From: Spirochaeta thermophila DSM 6578
Lineage (GTDB): Bacteria > Spirochaetota > Spirochaetia > Winmispirales > Winmispiraceae
Assembly: GCF_000184345.1 (NCBI RefSeq)
Contig: NC_017583.1
Location: forward strand, 1,426,001 to 1,490,000
DNA: 64,000 nt
Direction: 5' to 3'
Within the stretch, counting starts at the first letter, position 1; every line of letters begins with the position of its first letter. The notes below the pieces were generated by a model. That model was given only the letters and a program-made list of their open reading frames with translations, did not search any database and was not told the origin of the DNA. Shown piece after piece: positions 43,146-52,713 of this stretch. The translations under genes and the position numbers were made by a program.

Positions 43146-44123
43146 TCAGGCACCGGTCTGCTGGCCGAAGAGGCGGCGGAGAAGCGAGGAACCTTCCTCC
43201 CCTCCCTCCTCGAACACACCGATGGAGAAGTATTTCTGGCTCCGTTCCTTCACGAGCTGCCCGGGTTTCTTCTGCCTGAGCCGCTTGAGCGCATCCCGGA
43301 TGGTCTTCTTGATTTCCCCTGCGGTAAAGTCTGGATCAATGTGCGCCCCTCCCGGCGGTTCCGGGACGATCCCGTCGATGATCCCAAAGGCGAGCAAATC
43401 CTGAGCCGTGAGCTTCATGAGCTCTGCAGCTTCCTTGGCCTTGGAAGCGTCCCGCAGGAGGATGGAGGCACATCCCTCGGGTGAGATCACCGAATAGATG
43501 GCGTTCTCCAGCATGTAGATCTCGTCCCCCACACCTATCCCGAGGGCTCCTCCTGAACCGCCCTCTCCTATCACCACGCAGACTACCGGTACCTCGAGCA
43601 CACTAAACTCCTTGAGATTGCGGGCGATGGCCTCTCCGATCCCCCGTTCCTCCGCGGTCATGCCGGGATAGGCCCCTGAGGTGTCGATGAAGGTGATCAC
43701 AGGTCGCGAGAACTTCTCGGCCTGTTTGGCGAGTCTGAGGGCCTTGCGGTACCCCTCAGGATGGGCCATGCCATAGTTGCGCATGAGGTTCTCCTTCATG
43801 TTCCGGCCCTTCTGGTGACCTATCACCGTGACCGGGAATCCCTCGAAGAGGGCGATCCCTCCCACGATCGCGGGGTCGTCCCCACACCCACGATCGCCGT
43901 GGAGTTCCATGAAGGAGTCGAAGATGCGCTGGATGTAATCGAGCGTGGTGGGCCGCTGGATGTGTCTGGCGAGCTCCACCCTGTGCCATGCCGAGACCCG
44001 CTGTTCCTCCTTCGTCTTCTCTTCCCACTTCTTTATGAGGAGGTCGAGGTCGGGCAGGAGGTCGGGACGTGTGCGTTCTATCGAGGCCTTTAGTTTCTCC
44101 AGGTGGATCCTTATCTCGTCCAT
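43146..44123 (-). CDS. accA: acetyl-CoA carboxylase carboxyltransferase alpha
   Basis: 325 residues. ELHGDRGCGDDPAIVGG, HQKGRNMKENLMRNYGM and IGEGGSGGALGIGVGD are diagnostic. Directly follows accD with the ATG next to its TAG. Last gene of accBCDA; the convergent ccdA ends 102 bases away with no clear terminator. Confidence 0.96.
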   Translation of the reverse strand: MDEIRIHLEKLKASIERTRPDLLPDLDLLIKKWEEKTKEEQRVSAWHRVELARHIQRPTTLDYIQRIFDSFMELHGDRGCGDDPAIVGGIALFEGFPVTVIGHQKGRNMKENLMRNYGMAHPEGYRKALRLAKQAEKFSRPVITFIDTSGAYPGMTAEERGIGEAIARNLKEFSVLEVPVVCVVIGEGGSGGALGIGVGDEIYMLENAIYSVISPEGCASILLRDASKAKEAAELMKLTAQDLLAFGIIDGIVPEPPGGAHIDPDFTAGEIKKTIRDALKRLRQKKPGQLVKERSQKYFSIGVFEEGGEEGSSLLRRLFGQQTGA

Positions 44124-45026
44124 CTACGCCCCCTTTGTGCCGAGCCATCCCCGCTGGGGGATCTTGTGGGTATCCACGAGGAAGGCGATGGTCTTCCTCA
44201 GATCTCTACGATGCACCACTGCATCGACGAAGCCTTTCTCCTGCTGGAAGGCCGCACGCTGGAACCCCTCTGGGAGCTTCTGCCGGATGGTCCCCTCGAT
44301 CACGCGCGGACCTGCAAACCCGATGAGGGCTCCGGGCTCGGCGAGGATTACATCACCCAGCATGGCGAACGAGGCGGTGACCCCTCCCGTGGTGGGGTCG
44401 GTGAGGAGGATGAAGAGAGGGATACGCTCCTTCTCCATGAGGGCCGCTGCGTGGGAGGTCTTGGCCATCTGCATGAGGGAGAAGATGCCCTCCTGCATAC
44501 GGGCCCCTCCCGAAGCCGTGCAGATCAGGAGCGGGAGCCGCATGTCGATGGCGCGGAGCATGGCCCGCATCACCTTCTCACCCACGACAGAGCCCATGCT
44601 TCCCCCGATGAAGAAGAAGCTCATCACCGAGAGGAGGAGTTCCCTCCCCTCTACGGCGCCCTTGCCGTTTACCACCGCCTCGTTGAGTCCGGTCTTCACC
44701 ATGGCCGACTGGAGCTTCTCTCTGTACTCCGGGAAGCCGAGGGGATCATCGCTCCTGAGGTGGGCGTCATATTCCTCGAAAGAGCCCTCGTCCACCAGGA
44801 GCTCAATCCGCTCCCATGCGTCGAGTCTGAAGTGATAATCACATGAGGGGCATACATAGAGGTGTTCCTTGAGATCCCAGGAATCCACATGGGTCTGGCA
44901 CACGGGGCATTGGTGTTTCTTTTCCACGAACCGTCGGGGGTCGAGGCCGAGCACGGGCTTGAGTCCTGGACGCTGAGGCGCCCCCACCCCGCCGAAGACC
45001 TTCCGGAAGACGTCTCCGAGTTTCAT
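44124..45026 (-). CDS. accD: acetyl-CoA carboxylase carboxyltransferase beta
   Basis: 300 residues. N-terminal zinc ribbon CPVC...CPSC (about 40-63), then the crotonase-fold carboxyltransferase with TASGGARMQEGIFSLMQMAK and LTDPTTGGVTASFA. ATGA overlap with accC. Confidence 0.96.
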   Translation of the reverse strand: MKLGDVFRKVFGGVGAPQRPGLKPVLGLDPRRFVEKKHQCPVCQTHVDSWDLKEHLYVCPSCDYHFRLDAWERIELLVDEGSFEEYDAHLRSDDPLGFPEYREKLQSAMVKTGLNEAVVNGKGAVEGRELLLSVMSFFFIGGSMGSVVGEKVMRAMLRAIDMRLPLLICTASGGARMQEGIFSLMQMAKTSHAAALMEKERIPLFILLTDPTTGGVTASFAMLGDVILAEPGALIGFAGPRVIEGTIRQKLPEGFQRAAFQQEKGFVDAVVHRRDLRKTIAFLVDTHKIPQRGWLGTKGA

Positions 45027-46351
45027 TCCTGGCCTCCTTCCTCGAGGATCTTCTCGAGCACGTCGGTACCGAACCGACCGCTCCGGAAGATGGGATGGGA
45101 GACGATGCGCTTCTGGAGGTCGGTGTTCACCGTGATCCCCTCCACCACGAGCTCGTCGAGGGCGCGGAGCATCCGGGCGATCCCTTCTTCCCTCGTGGAG
45201 GCACCTACGATCACCTTGGCCACCAGGGAGTCGTAGAAGGCCGGGACCTCGGCACCGGTGTAGAGGTAGCTGTCGATCCTGGTCTTGAAGCCTGCAGGGG
45301 CGTGGAAGGCCGTCACCTTTCCGGGCGAGAGGGCGTTGATCCTGCACTCGAGGGCGTATCCGTCGAGACGCACCTCATCCTGGGTGAGGGAGAGCCGCTC
45401 ACCTCCCGCTGCCCGAATCTGCTCCCGCACGATGTCCACGCCGGTGATCATCTCGGTCACCGGGTGCTCCACCTGGATGCGGGCGTTCACCTCCATGAAG
45501 TAGAACCGACCGTCGGCCACGAGGAACTCAACCGTGCCGGCTCCCACATACCCTATGCCCTTGAAGAGTCGCACCGCTGCCTCACCCATGGCCTTGCGCA
45601 TCTCGGGAGTGACGACCGGCGAGGGGCTCTCTTCCACCAGCTTCTGGTGGTTCTTCTGCACGGAACAGTCCCGCTCCCCGAGGTGGACCACGTTGCCGTG
45701 GGCATCGCCGAGGAGCTGGACCTCCACGTGTCGAGGATTCTGGAGGAACTTCTCGATATAGAGGGTGCCGTCGGAGAAGGCCTTCTCGGCCTCCTGCGAG
45801 GCGATGCGGAGCGTACGCTCGAGGTCCTCCTCCTTCCACACGATCCGCATCCCCTTCCCTCCGCCACCTGCCGCGGCCTTGACGATCACGGGAAAGCCCA
45901 TCTCCCTCACGAGGGCCCTGGCCTGCGCCACGTCTTCCACCGCGCCGTCGCTCCCCGGAATCACCGGTACGCCGTACTTCCGAGCGGTCTCCTTGGCCTG
46001 GACCTTGTCCCCCAGAAGGTGGATCACCTCGGGCGAGGGGCCGATGAAGACGAGGCCCTCCTCCCTCACCCTGCGGGCGAAGTCCGCCCGTTCCGAGAGG
46101 AAGCCGAATCCGGGGTGCACGGCGTCACACCCTTTGAGGACCGCTGCGGCGATGAGGTTGCTCTGATTGAGGTAGCTCTCGGATGCGGGCGGAGGTCCCA
46201 CGCACACCGCCTCGTCGGCCATCCGCACGGCGAGCGAGGTGCGATCCGCCTCCGAGCAGGCCACCACGGTACGGATCCCCATCTCCTTGCATGTTCGGAT
46301 GATACGGACCGCGATCTCACCCCTGTTCGCGATGAAGACCGATCGGATCAT
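45023..46351 (-). CDS. accC: biotin carboxylase
   Basis: 442 residues. [19 protein letters not shown] at the start, ATP-grasp [13 protein letters not shown], and [20 protein letters not shown] are hallmarks. Carboxylates biotin on AccB. Overlaps accB and accD by ATGA. Confidence 0.97.
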
Positions 46352-46824
46352 AGACGCCTCACCTCGAAGAGCGGGGTACCGTACTCCACCATCTGCCCGT
46401 TCTCTGCCAGGACGCGCACGATTTCCATGGGGAACTCGGCCTCGAGCTCGTTCATGATCTTCATGGCTTCGATGATGCACAACGTCTGCCCCCGCTCGAC
46501 CCTCTGCCCTTCCTCCACGAAGGGAGGCGCATCGGGGGAGGGGGCCCGGTAGAAGGTGCCCACGATGGGCGAGGTGATGACCTCGAGGTCGGGGGCTCCC
46601 GGTGCCGCAGCAGAGATGCCCTCTGCACCCTCCTGGGTGGTGGGGGCAGCCACCGGCGCCGCCTGCGGAGTTGCGGGGTGCGACGCGATCATGACCGGCT
46701 GTGATGCAGGGACAGCCGGGTGTTTCTTCAAGACGATGGTGAAATCCTCCTGTTCTATCTTGAGGACGTCGAGGCCGCTCTTCTCGAACCGGTCCATGAG
46801 GGCGAAGATCTCTTCCAGATTCAT
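46348..46824 (-). CDS. accB: biotin carboxyl carrier protein
   Basis: 158 residues: helical N-terminus, Ala/Pro-rich linker (about 36-75) and a biotinyl domain with [12 protein letters not shown] (biotinylated Lys). First gene of accB-accC-accD-accA, which makes malonyl-CoA for fatty acid synthesis. Confidence 0.96.
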
Positions 46825-46856
46825 TCTTTCCTCCGCGTGCAGTCTCCTTCAGGAAG

Positions 46857-46885
46857 ACGCTAGCACGTGGCGGAGGCTTCGTCAA
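46857..46885 (-). promoter_or_regulatory. promoter of accBCDA
   Basis: TTGACG (46885-46880), 17-base spacer, TAGCGT (46862-46857) on the minus strand. -35 is good, -10 weak. Confidence 0.5.
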
Positions 46886-46892
46886 TGGTTTT

Positions 46893-46907
46893 TCGGCCAT
46901 CGGCCGA
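46893..46907. promoter_or_regulatory. palindromic operator candidate between acc and fabZ
   Basis: TCGGCC-ATC-GGCCGA, perfect 6-base arms, flanked on both sides by runs of T. Its centre (46900) is 15 bases from each of the two divergent -35 boxes, so one bound protein could control both. Confidence 0.55.
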
Positions 46908-46914
46908 TTTTTAC

Positions 46915-46943
46915 TTGTGTCTTTCCGGATTTCCATATATACT
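46915..46943 (+). promoter_or_regulatory. promoter of fabZ
   Basis: TTGTGT (46915-46920), 17-base spacer and TATACT (46938-46943). Confidence 0.5.
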
Positions 46944-46999
46944 ATCATGGACAGTTATGGTGGATTATTTCGAGACGATGCAAGGAAAGGAGCTGTGAC

Positions 47000-47434
47000 A
47001 TGCAGGACATCACCGCACTTCTTCCCCACAGGGAACCATTCCTTTTCGTGGAAGAGCTGGAGAAGGTCAGCGACGAGGAGATCGTCGGGTACAGGACGTT
47101 CACGGAGAAGGACTTCTTCTTCAAGGGACACTTCCCCGGATACCCGGTCGTTCCCGGAGTGATCCTGGTGGAAACCATGGCCCAGTGCGGCGGGGCCGGT
47201 GTGCGGGAGAAGGGGCTCATCGCCGACGACAAGCTCTTCTTCCTGGCCACCATAGAGAAGGCGAAGTTCAGACGCCAGGTGAGACCGGGTGACAGGGTGA
47301 AGCTGGTGATCACCAACCAGCGGATCTCGAGCCGCATGATAAAACAGAGCGGCAAGGCCTATGTGGGCGACGAGCTCGCCGCCGAGGCCGAATGGCTCTG
47401 CCTGGTGGGGGATGTCCCAGCAGAGGTGAAATGA
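47000..47434 (+). CDS. fabZ: 3-hydroxyacyl-ACP dehydratase
   Basis: 144 residues, hot-dog fold. LLPHREPFLFVEEL, the catalytic His in FFKGHFPGYPVVPGVILVETMAQCGG. Dehydrates 3-hydroxyacyl-ACP in chain elongation. ATG 47000 has AGGAG upstream; the long upstream frame overlaps the acc promoter. Followed by a terminator hairpin. Confidence 0.93.
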   Translation: MQDITALLPHREPFLFVEELEKVSDEEIVGYRTFTEKDFFFKGHFPGYPVVPGVILVETMAQCGGAGVREKGLIADDKLFFLATIEKAKFRRQVRPGDRVKLVITNQRISSRMIKQSGKAYVGDELAAEAEWLCLVGDVPAEVK

Positions 47435-47437
47435 TGG

Positions 47438-47463
47438 AGAGGAGGGGCCGTCGCCCCTCCTCT
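47438..47463 (+). terminator. intrinsic terminator after fabZ
   Basis: Perfect 11-bp AGAGGAGGGGC/GCCCCTCCTCT stem with CGTC loop, 4 bases after the fabZ stop, then TTGATTCT. Short T-tract, so read-through into the acyl-CoA synthetase gene is possible; no separate promoter is visible there. Confidence 0.6.
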
Positions 47464-47487
47464 TTGATTCTATCGAGAGGAGCGTTT

Positions 47488-49398
47488 ATGAGTACGGTAT
47501 ACGAGACCCTGCCTCAACGTATGAGGCGAAAGATCCTCGAAGAGTTCCCCGAGGCAGTCGCCCTCTATGTGAAAGACTCCCAGGGGGTCTTCCAGCCCAC
47601 ACCGTACAGGGAGTGGTGGTCCACGGTGAAGGAGACGGCGGCCGGGCTCAAGGACATGGGAATCGAGCGGGGCGAACACGTGGGGCTCATAAGCGACAAC
47701 AGGTGGGAGTGGATCACCTTGGACATGGCGCTACTCTCCCTGGGCGCGGTGGACGTGCCGCGGGGAAGCGATTCTACGGCGGAGGAGATCGCCTACATCC
47801 TCTCGCACGCAGAGTGCACGCGGGTCATCATAGAAAAACCAGATCTGGTGAAAAAAGTCTTCTCCCGAAAGGAGCAACTTGGAGGACTCTCCCAGGTGAT
47901 CCTCATTGAAGGCACCCCGGAAGAGTGTGAGCTCCCTGAGGGTGTTGCGTGCACCACGTTCGGTGAATTAAGAGAGAAGGGAAAGGCCCTCCTCTCCCAG
48001 GACCCCCAGCTCATCGATCGAGAGATAGATCAGGGAACGGGCGACGACCTCGCCACCATCATCTACACCTCCGGTACGACGGGAGAGCCCAAAGGAGTGA
48101 TGCTCCCCCACCGCAGCTTCATCTTTCAGATCGACAAACTCAAGAAACCTCTCGACGTCGAGGTGGGAGACATCTTTCTCTCCATCCTCCCGATATGGCA
48201 TTCCTTCGAACGTGCCGTGGACTATGTTCTCATGGAACGCGGAGGCGCCGTGGCCTATTCGAAACCGGTGGGGAAGATCCTTCTCGAGGATATGGCCAAG
48301 GTGAGCCCGCAGTGGCTCGCTGCGGTTCCCCGGGTCTTCGAAGGGATACGGAACGCGGTCTACCGCAACGTGAACAAGGGCCCGGCCGTCTCCAGGGTCC
48401 TCTTCCACTTCTTCGTGGGGGTGGGACAGCTCTATGCCTATTTCTCCAACATGTTCCGCGGACTTCTGCCCGACTTCCTCCCCCGGAACCGCATCCTCGA
48501 CAAGGTGGTGGCCTTCCTCCCCCTCGTGCTCCTCGCCCCCTTCCGTGGCCTCGGAGAGGTACTCGTCTTTCGAAAGCTCAAGGCAAAACTCGGCGGCAGG
48601 TTCAAGACGGGCGTTTCGGGTGGTGGTGCCCTCCCCCCCCATGTGGACACTTTTTTCCAGGCCGTGGGCATCCAGGTCCTCGAGGGCTACGGCCTCACCG
48701 AGACAGGGCCTGTGCTCGCCGTGCGGAACCAAAAGGCCCCCATGGTGGGTACGGTGGGGCCCCTCCTCGACGAGGTGGAGTACAAGGTGGTCGGGGAACA
48801 CGGAGATCCCTTGCCTCCTGGACACAAGGGGGTGCTCTGGGTGAAGAGTCCCCAGGTGATGCTCGGCTACTACAAGCGCCCCGAGGCCACGGCCGAGGTG
48901 CTCAAGGACGGATGGCTCAACACGGGGGATCTGGTACGATTCACCCATGGTCGGGAGTTCGCCATAGTCGGCCGCGCAAAGGACACCATCGTGCTCCGGG
49001 GCGGAGAGAACGTGGAGCCAGGTCCCATCGAGGAGAAGCTCAAGGAGTCAGAGTTCATCGAGAACGCGATGGTGGTGGGACAGGACCAGAAGTTCCTGGG
49101 CGCCCTCATCGTCCCCAACAGGGAGCGGATAGAGGAATACGCGAGGGAGAAAGGCCTCACCTACATGGAGTACGAGGACCTGGTGGAACAGGCAGAGGTC
49201 CAGGAGGCGATCAACGACGAGATCCAGCGACTCATCAGCCCGGCCCAGGGTTTCAAACCTTTCGAGAGGATCTTCCGCTTCGAGGTCATCGCGAAACCCT
49301 TCGAAGTGGGCGTGGAGCTCACACCCTCGCTCAAGGTGAAACGCCACGTGATAAGCGAGATGTATCGCGAGAAGATAGAGAGGATGTTCTCCCGCTGA
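47488..49398 (+). CDS. long-chain acyl-CoA synthetase
   Basis: 636 residues, AMP-forming ANL enzyme of the long-chain FAA/FadD15 type. IIYTSGTTGEPKGVMLPH (AMP loop), EGYGLTETGPVLAVR, and GRAKDTIVLRGGENVEPGPIEE are present. ATG 47488 follows GAGAGGAG. Activates fatty acids, consistent with the fatty acid genes next door. Confidence 0.93.
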   Translation: MSTVYETLPQRMRRKILEEFPEAVALYVKDSQGVFQPTPYREWWSTVKETAAGLKDMGIERGEHVGLISDNRWEWITLDMALLSLGAVDVPRGSDSTAEEIAYILSHAECTRVIIEKPDLVKKVFSRKEQLGGLSQVILIEGTPEECELPEGVACTTFGELREKGKALLSQDPQLIDREIDQGTGDDLATIIYTSGTTGEPKGVMLPHRSFIFQIDKLKKPLDVEVGDIFLSILPIWHSFERAVDYVLMERGGAVAYSKPVGKILLEDMAKVSPQWLAAVPRVFEGIRNAVYRNVNKGPAVSRVLFHFFVGVGQLYAYFSNMFRGLLPDFLPRNRILDKVVAFLPLVLLAPFRGLGEVLVFRKLKAKLGGRFKTGVSGGGALPPHVDTFFQAVGIQVLEGYGLTETGPVLAVRNQKAPMVGTVGPLLDEVEYKVVGEHGDPLPPGHKGVLWVKSPQVMLGYYKRPEATAEVLKDGWLNTGDLVRFTHGREFAIVGRAKDTIVLRGGENVEPGPIEEKLKESEFIENAMVVGQDQKFLGALIVPNRERIEEYAREKGLTYMEYEDLVEQAEVQEAINDEIQRLISPAQGFKPFERIFRFEVIAKPFEVGVELTPSLKVKRHVISEMYREKIERMFSR

Positions 49399-49503: not shown

Positions 49504-50619
49504 CTACCAGTTGATGATCGAAAAAAAGGCCTTCTTGGGATCACCCTTTCCGTCGAAGAGGAGTGGATAGTTCTCCCTCCGCTCCTTAAGAAAGCGTCCG
49601 CCTGAGAACCCGTTGAGCCACGAATCGGGATCCGTGAGACCCCAGAACGTGACCGATGTGACCTCACCCTTGTGTTGCCGGAAGACCTCGAATATCTCCG
49701 CGTAGCGACGGGAGAGGCGCTCCTCGAGTTCAGGCGTATACTCCATCTGAGGAGTAGATGGATTGCCATCGTAGCAATCGATGTCGAGTTCGGTGATGTG
49801 GACCTCAAGCCCCATGGAGGCGAAGGTCTCGATCGTCCTCGAGATCTCGTCGACGGAGGGCCACACGAGGTTCCAGTGAGCCTGGATCCCTATGCCGTCG
49901 AGACCGGCCTCCACGAGATCGAGCTCCTCGAGCATGCGCACGATCCTCTCCCTCTTGCCGGGCTGGACCACGTTGTAGTCGTTGTAGAAGAGCTTGGCAT
50001 CGGGATCCGCCATCCGCGCATACTCGAAGGCCTCCCTGATGTACTCAGGCCCTCCGTACGACTGATACCAGGGAGAAGAGGTGCGCCACTGCGATCCGTC
50101 ACCCACCGCCTCGTTCACCACGTCCCAGGCATGGATCTCTCCTCGGAAGTGGCCCGCCACCGTGCTGATGTACTCCTTGAGGAGCCGCTTCGCCTCTTCC
50201 TTGGGAATTTTCCCGGGTATGAGGGAGGAGGTCTGGTTGTGCCACACGAGGGTGTGGCCTCTCACCACGGCCCCATGCTCCCGGGCGTATCGAACGAGTC
50301 GGTCTCCATAGGTGAAGTCATACGTCCCATCACGATAGATGTTCTCCGGCTTCATCCCGTTCTCTGCCGTGAACGAGTTGAAGTGCTCGAGCAACCTCTC
50401 TCCATAGGCCTGATAGAAGGGCGTGCTGTTGTACTCGCCCAGCTTCACCGCAGCACCGATGTAAAAATAGTCCTTATATACCTCTTTGAGAGGGGCATAC
50501 GCCATGGAACGCTCCTTCATACCCGCGGGATAGAGGCCTCCCAGCCCCACCAGGAAGGCCATGATGAGGAGGGCACCTCTTGGTATAGGATGTGTACTTT
50601 CCGTACTTGTCTTCATCAT
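49504..50619 (-). CDS. GH10 endo-xylanase
   Basis: 371 residues. N-terminal hydrophobic segment (about 16-30), probably a signal or anchor without clear cleavage site, then one GH10 barrel: FNSFTAENGMKPE, VRGHTLVWHNQ, acid/base Glu in AWDVVNEAVGDG, and nucleophile Glu in VHITELDIDCYD, ending in FWGLTDPDSWL. Cuts beta-1,4-xylan outside the cytoplasm. No binding module. ATG 50619 and 50616 are both possible; the promoter predicts a start on the ATG itself. Confidence 0.94.
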   Translation of the reverse strand: MMKTSTESTHPIPRGALLIMAFLVGLGGLYPAGMKERSMAYAPLKEVYKDYFYIGAAVKLGEYNSTPFYQAYGERLLEHFNSFTAENGMKPENIYRDGTYDFTYGDRLVRYAREHGAVVRGHTLVWHNQTSSLIPGKIPKEEAKRLLKEYISTVAGHFRGEIHAWDVVNEAVGDGSQWRTSSPWYQSYGGPEYIREAFEYARMADPDAKLFYNDYNVVQPGKRERIVRMLEELDLVEAGLDGIGIQAHWNLVWPSVDEISRTIETFASMGLEVHITELDIDCYDGNPSTPQMEYTPELEERLSRRYAEIFEVFRQHKGEVTSVTFWGLTDPDSWLNGFSGGRFLKERRENYPLLFDGKGDPKKAFFSIINW

Positions 50620-50626
50620 GGGGACA

Positions 50627-50655
50627 AGTATACCCTGGAATCAGGATTATAGCAA
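50627..50655 (-). promoter_or_regulatory. promoter of the xylanase gene
   Basis: TTGCTA (50655-50650), 17-base spacer, TATACT (50632-50627) on the minus strand. Expected start at 50620-50619, the first ATG base, with no ribosome site upstream. A second TATAAT (50653-50648) overlaps the -35 and would give a leader of about 20 bases. Confidence 0.5.
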
Positions 50656-50661
50656 GGATTT

Positions 50662-52713
50662 TTAAAATTCTCTTATAAAAGGCACGCCCGGGAGGTGTTC
50701 CACCTCGAGCATCCAGCCTTTCGAAGACGGGAAACCCCTCGTCTCGCCTGCTCCGTCCTTCCCCGACATGAGGGCCACGGCCCACAGGAGCGCGCCGTTA
50801 CCGGGAAGATACACGGGAAGGTCGGGGCCCTGGTAGTTGTGACCGTTGGGGAGATAGGTGTTCTTGGGCGACTCCATGAGGAGGAGGTCCGGTACCCGTT
50901 CCACCTCCCCCACCCTGGCCGCTACGAGAGCCAACAAAGGAAAGTCCCATCCCCACATGCTGGGGAAGTCCCAGGAGGAAAGCACCATGCCGAGGGTCCG
51001 ACGCACCACCTCTCTGTCCAACGGTGGATCCGGCAGAAGGGCAAGGGGGAAGAGCATGGAGGGATGATCCCGGTTGTGTTCGGTCCACGTGGTACTACAC
51101 CGTTCGTGAGCAGGAAAGATTCCTCCACTCACGGGAAGCGGGGCGAGGAGAGACAACACTCGCTCCCATTCGGGAGGAGTCTCTCCTCCCGACATGCGCA
51201 TCCATTCACGGGCTGTCTCCAGCGCCCACCGCCAGTAAGCGAGTTCGAACACCGGATTGAGGGTCTCGAGGGGGTGATGCGTCTCCTGGACCGGGATGAG
51301 GGGTGGTCCGAGGTTGTAGTGCCGCCCATCCCACTGCAGAAAGTCCACCATGAACCTGGCGGTCTGGAAGACGATCTCGGCGTATTCGTCCACCACAGGC
51401 CTGGAGGGAAAGGCCCTCCGGAGGAGTTCCGCGTACATGATGGGATGGGGTTGCTGCCAGCAGAGGTACACACCGATGGGAGAGGGGCTCTCTTTCCCCG
51501 AAGGATCGGTCATCTTCGGCCACCTCGCCCCTTCGTATCCCTGGGAGGCGGCGTGTGCCACGGCCTCGGGGAGGATGCGCCGGTACCACCAGAGGCTCCT
51601 CTCCAGGAGGTTCGGATGACCCCAGAGGACGAAGTGCCCGGCATGGAGCAGATGCATCTCGAGGTGGAACTTCCCGTACCAACTGTTGCAGGTGAGACCG
51701 GTCTCTTGGGGGGGGAGCGAGCCCGCGCACTGGACGGTCGTGAGGTACCGGGAGAGGACGACCCTTCGCTCGAGTTCCTGAGCGCCGGGGTGGGTGCTTC
51801 GGGAGAAGTCGATCATCCCCCCGGTGGTCCAGAACTCCTCCCAGAAGGCAGAAGCACCTTCAGCACATTCGGTCCACCCCGGACATGGGGTTCGGGGGGG
51901 AACAGGAGTGAACTCCACACTCATCTCGAGGGGCGAGGATTCACCCTCCAGCACGTAGAGATGGGGACGCATCCGGAAGAGGCGTCCACCCCCCTTCCAC
52001 CTGAGGTGTACGAAGTACACGGTCTCGTCGACATGGCGAAGGAGAAGGGCATTCCCCGCCCCGGAACGGACCACCTCCGTCCGGTGTCGATCCTCCGAAT
52101 CCCAATGAGCCCCCTCCATCTCATGTGAAGGATAGGGGAAGGCGAGCCTGAGGGCGATCTTCCTCCTCTCGAGGAGTCGGGGAGCCTCCACCCTCACCGC
52201 CACGAGGTCCCGTGAAGGGTGTACCACTGTGAACACCTCCACCGGAGACCCCTCCAGCAGGAAGAAGCTGTGGAGGGAGCCGGTCCACAAGTCGAGCTCC
52301 TGTCGAGGCGAGCGCAAGAGAGAGCACCCATCCTCTCCCATCGATCCAGCGCGCAGACCCTTTCCGAAGAGGAATCCCAGCGTCCCCAGGTGGAACCGAT
52401 GTGGATTGATCCTCAGTGCCGTGTAGACATCCTCCTGTCCTGTGGCCTCGCTCATGTAGCCCACCGTTCTCGAGCCGCTCCGGTGGTACGTGAGCCGGAG
52501 GTCCTCATGGGGATGATCGGGATACGAGTGGAAGGCCCACTGGGCCATGGTGCAGAGGGGTATGCCCCCCTTCGGAACGGGGAAGGTCTGGAGCCCGGTG
52601 ATATCGGCGGTGAAGGCGAACTCGCCATTTCCCACCGTGAGGGGCGAGAGAGGATCCGGCCGATACAGCACCGGATTGTGCCTGCGGACCACGTCCTTTC
52701 GCCGTATGGCCAT
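50662..52713 (-). CDS. (alpha/alpha)6-barrel glycosidase-like protein, family not recognised
   Basis: 683 residues, no signal peptide, so cytoplasmic. N-terminal beta-sandwich-like domain (about 1-290, with YRPDPLSPLTVGNGEFAF), then helical barrel segments rich in Trp (CNSWYGKFHLEMHLLHAGH, WWYRRILPEAVAHAA, GARWPKMTDPSGKESPSPIG, WQQPHPIMYAELL, WTEHNRDHPSMLF). The plan resembles GH65/GH95/GH127-type six-hairpin glycosidases, and an acid such as the Glu in FHLEMH or in TEHNRD could be catalytic. Co-transcribed with the GH43 gene (stop and start adjacent). Probably trims oligosaccharide side chains after import; exact activity unknown. Confidence 0.7.
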   Translation of the reverse strand: MAIRRKDVVRRHNPVLYRPDPLSPLTVGNGEFAFTADITGLQTFPVPKGGIPLCTMAQWAFHSYPDHPHEDLRLTYHRSGSRTVGYMSEATGQEDVYTALRINPHRFHLGTLGFLFGKGLRAGSMGEDGCSLLRSPRQELDLWTGSLHSFFLLEGSPVEVFTVVHPSRDLVAVRVEAPRLLERRKIALRLAFPYPSHEMEGAHWDSEDRHRTEVVRSGAGNALLLRHVDETVYFVHLRWKGGGRLFRMRPHLYVLEGESSPLEMSVEFTPVPPRTPCPGWTECAEGASAFWEEFWTTGGMIDFSRSTHPGAQELERRVVLSRYLTTVQCAGSLPPQETGLTCNSWYGKFHLEMHLLHAGHFVLWGHPNLLERSLWWYRRILPEAVAHAASQGYEGARWPKMTDPSGKESPSPIGVYLCWQQPHPIMYAELLRRAFPSRPVVDEYAEIVFQTARFMVDFLQWDGRHYNLGPPLIPVQETHHPLETLNPVFELAYWRWALETAREWMRMSGGETPPEWERVLSLLAPLPVSGGIFPAHERCSTTWTEHNRDHPSMLFPLALLPDPPLDREVVRRTLGMVLSSWDFPSMWGWDFPLLALVAARVGEVERVPDLLLMESPKNTYLPNGHNYQGPDLPVYLPGNGALLWAVALMSGKDGAGETRGFPSSKGWMLEVEHLPGVPFIREF

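Follow-up and report, generated by a model that had tools for sequence, protein, structure and literature searches.

The 15-bp palindrome between the divergent accB and fabZ genes of the window (the whole stretch of 64,000 nucleotides analysed here) is, with a probability of about 0.8 as judged from sequence comparison, the operator of a TetR-family homodimer controlling a type II fatty-acid synthesis (FASII) regulon that includes accBCDA and fabZ. Near-identical predicted sites precede most fatty-acid synthesis operons in the genome of the window and in several relatives. The sequence-only reading had proposed that malonyl-CoA production and chain elongation could be coordinated by one regulator; sister sites and conservation support this proposal and suggest a broader role, extending to most of the pathway. 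The analysis thus names a candidate regulator, its predicted operator of 15 bp and a list of targets, and it indicates how acetyl-CoA carboxylase and the elongation cycle could be linked through one site. The features of the region are as follows.

43146..44123, minus strand: accA, carboxyltransferase alpha (NF004344, 432.2 bits, cut-off 357)
44124..45026, minus strand: accD, carboxyltransferase beta, putative (open frame with a start, resembling the accD of genome G002 by reading)
45023..46351, minus strand: accC, biotin carboxylase (NF006367, 642.7 bits, cut-off 597; TIGR00514, 621.9 bits, slightly under its cut-off of 626.5)
46348..46824, minus strand: accB, biotin carboxyl carrier protein (TIGR00531, 161.8 bits, cut-off 115.2)
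46857..46862, minus strand: predicted accB -10 box, TAGCGT, 17-base spacer
46880..46885, minus strand: predicted accB -35 box, TTGACG, beginning at 46885; G002 has a comparable hexamer
46893..46907, no strand: predicted operator palindrome, TCGGCCATCGGCCGA (TCGGCC-ATC-GGCCGA); class consensus TCGGYCRNYGRCCGA
46915..46920, plus strand: predicted fabZ -35 box, TTGTGT, beginning at 46915
46938..46943, plus strand: predicted fabZ -10 box, TATACT, 17-base spacer
47000..47434, plus strand: fabZ, 3-hydroxyacyl-ACP dehydratase (NF000582, 129 bits, cut-off 113; TIGR01750, 123.1 bits, under its cut-off of 155.15)
47488..49398, plus strand: fadD-like acyl-CoA ligase, downstream of fabZ (ligase family matches)

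The palindrome stands exactly where it had been described, with its centre at 46900 and each predicted -35 box starting 15 bases away from it, and the T-rich flanks claimed for it were confirmed, TTTTT adjoining it on both sides. The interval 46857-46943 spans from one predicted -10 box to the other. The four promoter boxes were assigned by reading, with similar hexamers at the same positions in G002, and a strict consensus promoter scan of 46700-47100 returned no promoter; a search of the same segment against Rfam gave nothing at gathering scores. By itself, the palindrome is not significant, 6-bp palindromes being ordinary in the window: perfect ones with 6-bp arms and a 3-bp loop number 25 (10 shuffles averaged 20.8), and TCGGYCRNYGRCCGA with up to one mismatch occurs once, against 0.57 expected (window G+C, 62.1%). 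What lends it significance is the search of the whole genome and the comparison with other genomes.

Between fabZ and the fadD-like gene lies a perfect 10-bp hairpin (47439-47465, GAGGAGGGGC-CGTC-GCCCCTCCTC) followed by TTT; this hairpin is likely a terminator, so that the fabZ promoter may not serve fadD. The fadD-like protein matched ligase families, with none of the 25 matches listed reaching its NCBIfam cut-off. Downstream of this gene, at 49504-52713, a xylanase-like gene and another glycoside-hydrolase-like gene were seen by eye.

The whole 2.56-Mb genome of the window (G000; 2,560,222 bp in one contig) contains four sites of the pattern TCGGYCNNNGRCCGA, against one for the reversed control, and all four are located upstream of FASII genes. 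These sites are listed below by genome position, together with a variant palindrome.

1472893: between accB and fabZ (the palindrome of the window)
78692: upstream of fabH
1899288: upstream of fabV
2454139: upstream of fabD-fabG-fabF
1221725: variant palindrome TCGGCT-CTC-AGCCGA, three mismatches from the consensus, upstream of rpmF-acpP

Exact TCGGYCRNYGRCCGA sites are expected in G000 at 0.42-0.49 for 60-62% G+C. NCBIfam models scored above cut-off for FabH, FabV, FabF, FabG (TIGR01830), FabD, AccA, AccC (NF006367) and acyl carrier protein. When one mismatch was allowed, the number of sites in G000 rose by 7 to 11 (control, 3); the four of these seven that were inspected all lie within long open frames. 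A two-mismatch scan of G000 with the stricter TCGGCC pattern was not enriched (133 matches against 158 for the reversed control), and the one-mismatch matches of the TCGGCC scan that were read all lie within long open frames, except for the fabH site at 78692.

These G000 sites bear on whether the palindrome is instead an intrinsic terminator placed between the divergent units, as its stem of 6, loop of 3 and following TTTTT on the plus strand would allow. However, it lies upstream of the fabZ promoter, where only antisense read-through would be there to stop, the fabH site (TATTCGGTCAATGGCCGAAAAA) has no such T run on that strand, and the other three G000 sites are upstream of gene starts. 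The terminator was rejected, and we regard it as very improbable.

The close relative G001 carries the same four sites, at the same genes, as G000. In G002, from another genus of the same family, the one-mismatch pattern gave seven sites against none in the control, located at accB/fabZ, fabDGF, fabH, fabV and rpmF-acpP, plus two others. One operator-like site of G002 with one mismatch is flanked by another TetR-like gene and a gene resembling MFS transporters (L288, G002:C1:547955). A decarboxylase-type set resembling OadG/OadA/OadB lies divergent to fabDGF in G000 as well as in G002, with the site in between (L084, L082), and the two gene sets may share control.

A search of 41 genomes, 37 of which had a match, yielded 30 fabZ loci, two of them ending at contig ends, and accB-accC is divergent to fabZ in 7 of the 30. 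The accB/fabZ palindrome is present in G000, G001 and G002 (TCGGTCAATGGCCGA); a version with one mismatch, TCGGCCGGCAACCGA, occurs in G028, which belongs to another family. Among the divergent loci, the site (0-1 mismatch) occurs in 4/4 genomes with the TetR protein considered below and is absent from 3/3 without it (G039, G038 and G013; best match with 3-5 mismatches). In G002, the intergenic flanks have diverged, yet the site persists, together with similar promoter hexamers and a spacing of -50/-51. Both the recurrence near other lipid genes and the conservation in relatives, whose joint absence would have refuted the sequence-only reading, were found, the first in the three other exact-class sites of G000 (before fabH, fabV and fabDGF) and the second in the accB/fabZ sites of G001, G002 and G028. 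A chance palindrome in an AT-rich gap is scarcely credible: the window does hold 25 comparable palindromes against 20.8 expected, but the exact-class sites of G000 are upstream of FASII genes in 4/4 cases, and the site persists where its flanks have diverged.

The link to a protein comes from G028, where seven sites were found (against three in the control) and one of them immediately precedes the start codon of a gene of the TetR family. Further sites in this genome are located at fabH/fabDGF, upstream of acpP-rnc, at an FAS-like cluster and at a dehydrogenase-E1-like gene, and a tandem pair lies beside transporter-like and acyl-CoA-ligase-like genes; names of neighbours outside the profile-search matches were given by reading of the sequences. 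When the G028 TetR protein was compared with 60 genomes, G000 included, 16 long matches were obtained at E <=2e-34, followed by a gap to 1e-10. Matches to the forward and the reversed pattern stood at 58:18 in the 16 genomes with the protein and at 28:50 in the 44 genomes without it.

The properties of the sites were compared between 57 of the 58 in genomes with the TetR protein (one G044 site being left out) and a control set of all 28 sites of the 44 genomes without it. An R-N-Y centre was found in 48/57 against 3/28 sites (Fisher p 5e-11), a position outside called ORFs in 46/57 against 3/28 (p 5e-10), and a FAS gene, fadD-like gene or tetR starting at most 450 bases away in 34/57 against 1/28 (p 3e-7; 8 of the 34 counted by a fadD-like gene only), p-values that overstate the differences, because related genomes (the sample includes the close relatives G000/G001, G007/G032 and G026/G046) were treated as independent and base composition differs. 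The flanks are 80% A+T in the first set and 39% in the control set. Eleven of the 57 sites lie inside called ORFs, a class drawn by a crude ORF picker that also calls some true upstream regions coding, such as that of the G000 fabV site. No adjacent reference gene was found for 23 of the 57; some of these are upstream of PlsC-, EtfB-, FabK-, FadL- or dehydrogenase-E1-like genes by reading, and others are inside unrelated frames.

Genes resembling the beta subunit of electron-transfer flavoprotein follow a site in each of G024, G023 and G043 (L150, L295, L300), which points to a possible connection with acyl-CoA redox. Sites also precede a long dehydrogenase-E1-like gene in G007, G032 and G028 (L146, L165, L080), those of G007 and G032 without the R-N-Y centre; this is possibly a gene for acetyl- or acyl-CoA supply.

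The candidate regulator gene in the genome of the window is the following.

G000:C1:1925717-1926253, minus strand: candidate tetR, encoding a protein of 183-187 amino acids (locus L090)

It is highly probable, from sequence similarity, that this matched TetR protein is the regulator in G000. It shares 41-44% identity with the G028 protein. For the TetR protein, the N-terminal TetR_N helix-turn-helix scored 58.6 bits against PF00440, above the cut-off of 24. The AlphaFold model (mean pLDDT 84.1, nine helices) shows the all-helical TetR fold, and in the fold comparison the 50 rows listed, with Z of 15.5-18.0, are TetR-type regulators by title. No subfamily was singled out in this comparison, many TetR proteins of varied function being tied. 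Similarly, no NCBIfam equivalog scored above cut-off for the TetR protein: the values were 44.5 bits for Bacillus FadR (NF053878, cut-off 200), 25.3 for mycobacterial FasR (NF053731, cut-off 330), 24.7 for Vibrio PsrA (NF053516, cut-off 300) and 53.9 for BetI (TIGR03384, cut-off 201.3). By its sequence, the putative regulator is a TetR-family member of none of the named subfamilies tested. In G000, G001 and G002, the tetR gene directly follows the apparent end of a histidine-phosphotransfer-domain gene, as seen by eye.

The motif TCGGYY-N3-RRCCGA, with at most one mismatch, was found upstream of tetR in 8 of the 16 genomes, with none for the reversed control; a ninth match, in G024, has a spacer of 4 and is doubtful. 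In the lineage of the window itself (G000, G001 and G002), no site was found upstream of tetR, so that the link to the protein there rests on orthology. The analysis was extended to 80 further loci of tetR relatives, several of which encode the same or nearly the same proteins as in the 16 genomes (identical or zero-length tree rows). Upstream of these genes, TCGGYC-Nn-GRCCGA with at most one mismatch matched 17 loci with n=3 and 27 with n=4 (controls, 0 and 2), giving 42 distinct loci of the 80; the remaining 38, Alkalispirochaeta alkalica included, have neither spacer. Matches were also obtained for spacer 0 at 16 loci (control, 1) and for spacer 8 at 10 (control, 0); all these loci match spacer 3 or 4 as well, mostly through overlapping CGGTC/GACCG repeats.

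Under a slightly looser rule, spacer 4 was assigned to 30 tree rows, 18 from Bacillota, 6 from spirochaetes and the others from Mycoplasmatota, Thermodesulfobacteriota, Chloroflexota and Myxococcota. The spirochaete rows fall into two groups in the tree of 96 TetR proteins, where long branches are flagged and the spacer label changes 20 times, against a least possible number of 3; we therefore make no claim on the direction of spacer change. Eight spacer-4 loci from outside the Spirochaetes were read, five of them with alcohol-dehydrogenase-like neighbours and none with a FASII gene by eye within about 2 kb on each side, and these proteins thus seem to be relatives with a different function. 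In Bacillota, Myxococcota and Thermodesulfobacteriota, TetR relatives near iron-alcohol-dehydrogenase-like genes, recognised by eye, have the same half-sites with a 4-base spacer (L242, L243, L245, L263, L271).

Family f22 (G023 and G043) has a half-site variant of its own, its tetR site being TCGGTT-ATA-AACCGA. The corresponding pattern TCGGTYNNNRACCGA gave three sites in G023 and six in G043 (controls, 0 and 1), located at tetR and at EtfB-like genes in both genomes, and further at fabH-fabD, fabD, coaD near acpP, a fadD-like gene and one porin-like gene. This bears on the alternative that the palindrome is recognised by some other transcription factor, the TetR protein merely co-occurring with it, for which one may adduce the missing tetR site in the lineage of the window and the one-mismatch G002 site beside another TetR-like gene (L288). 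We consider this alternative improbable in view of the sites upstream of tetR in 8/16 genomes and 42/80 loci of relatives, against 0 to 2 in controls, the genome-level co-occurrence of sites with the TetR protein, and the f22 half-site variants common to tetR and its putative targets.

With the TetR homodimer as the preferred reader of the palindrome, accBCDA and fabZ would be controlled from one shared predicted operator, and the sister sites would place fabH, fabD-fabG-fabF, fabV and probably rpmF-acpP under the same dimer. To judge the direction of control, promoter geometry was analysed for 34 site-gene pairs, in which the promoters are predicted and the starts of transcription are not mapped. 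Relative to the best predicted promoter, the site is centred at -35 or -36 at fabD of G000, G002, G003, G032 and G051 (in G024 only with the second-best one) and at -35 at fabH of G000, and in these fabD and fabH sites the right half-site holds the predicted -35 box, TTGACC. A centre near +5 was found at tetR (+5) and fabD (+5) of G028 and at fabH of G002 (+8), the G028 tetR site covering the predicted start of transcription. The third arrangement, with the centre at -50 or -51, comprises accB and fabZ in G000 and G002, and fabV in G000, G002 and G029. The divergent pair of G028, with distances of -47 for accB and -62 for fabZ, falls outside the three arrangements, as do, among others, acpP at about -90 (G000, G002), fabH of G023 at -120, fabD of G029 at -44, and the genes divergent from the targets at the sites in G000, for which the distances are -53 to -59. 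The three predicted geometries (-50, -35 and +5) form a natural series for one TetR regulator.

Net repression by the TetR protein is probable. A dimer bound over the -35 box of fabD and fabH, or over the start at G028 tetR, would shut out RNA polymerase, since the site covers these elements, and the predicted -35 and +5 arrangements suggest repression by exclusion at fabD, fabH and tetR. At accB, fabZ and fabV, a centre at -50 is not a classic repressor position; there, adjoining the -35 box, the bound protein could either block upstream contacts of the polymerase or activate. The dimer would most likely respond to long-chain acyl-CoA, acyl-ACP or a similar end product. The acyl-thioester ligand is a guess by analogy, made because FadR structures with acyl-CoA are among the Foldseek hits, and we give it slightly less than an even chance; it is weak because the solved structures nearest to the model are TetR proteins with a wide range of functions, and a second aligner placed the FadR structures level with TetR proteins that do other things. 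The best account would be end-product repression of the whole pathway, with a sign at accB/fabZ that may go either way.

It is rather unlikely, on the same geometry, that the TetR protein is an activator or a dual regulator, activating accB, fabZ and fabV from -50 and repressing fabD, fabH and itself. Its sites are centred at -50/-51 at the former genes and lie over the -35 box or the start elsewhere, and activators of lipid genes exist, the FasR site of S. coelicolor, near -67, being described as an activator position (PMC5541348). However, the promoters are predicted with unmapped starts, a site at -50 next to the -35 box can also repress, the accB -35 box (TTGACG) comes close to the consensus and does not require an activator, and the G028 distances of -47 and -62 do not keep a fixed -50. 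A bolder form, which we judge unlikely, is that of an undescribed FASII master TetR of the Spirochaetia, dual by geometry, with a half-site constant across phyla and a spacer varying by one base. Such a protein would repress itself and also fabD and fabH, at both of these with its own half-site used as the -35 box of the promoter, and would activate accB, fabZ and fabV from near -50; the spacer would be 3 in most spirochaete sites and 4 mostly in Bacillota relatives. If true, malonyl-CoA supply would be set against chain initiation. The distances in G028 depart from a fixed -50 and make this dual reading slightly less likely.

In open-access literature, as covered by titles and abstract openings, we found no transcriptional regulator of fatty-acid synthesis in spirochaetes and no RegPrecise-type literature on such a regulator, and a phrase search likewise found none. 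FapR belongs to a different protein family from TetR. According to PMC5052256, the global FASII regulators FapR and FabT have been described for Gram-positive bacteria, and FapR of Bacillus and Staphylococcus is a global repressor that binds inverted repeats at several fab promoters and its own. The likeness to the system proposed here lies in the mode of action, one repressor for several fab promoters, whereas FapR has a 17-bp repeat and senses malonyl-CoA. FabR and DesT are also lipid-gene regulators, DesT being called TetR-like, but they adjust unsaturated fatty acids and not the whole pathway, and are set apart here by this description (PMC5052256).

FasR and MabR have been described for mycobacterial FAS I and FAS II; in actinobacteria, their palindromes stand upstream of FAS promoters, and mycobacterial FasR responds to long-chain acyl-CoA, which resembles the present proposal. 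Different are the sites, given at -67, -87 and -147 as for activators (all from PMC5541348), and the score, which missed the NF053731 cut-off. Bacillus subtilis FadR shares the TetR fold and is among the top Foldseek hits (3whb and 3whc, the latter with stearoyl-CoA), but its PDB title names it a regulator of fatty-acid degradation, and the NF053878 cut-off was missed. FadR of Thermus thermophilus is, according to PMC5597230, a TetR protein with a 15-bp pseudopalindrome whose targets are fatty-acid synthesis, degradation and its own operon. The TetR fold, the 15-bp pseudopalindrome and the fatty-acid synthesis targets are like those proposed here, and this FadR was crystallised with acyl-CoA (3ang/3anp, by title); its consensus TTRNACYNRGTNYAA differs by eye from TCGGYCRNYGRCCGA at positions 2, 5 and 7 and their mirrors, and it shares 22-24% identity with the TetR protein in the structural alignment. 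The sequence-only reading held the site to be unlike known FapR and FabR sites; among known operators, the comparison made here covered the T. thermophilus FadR consensus. Altogether, the predicted system is, by analogy, one that would work like FapR or FadR.
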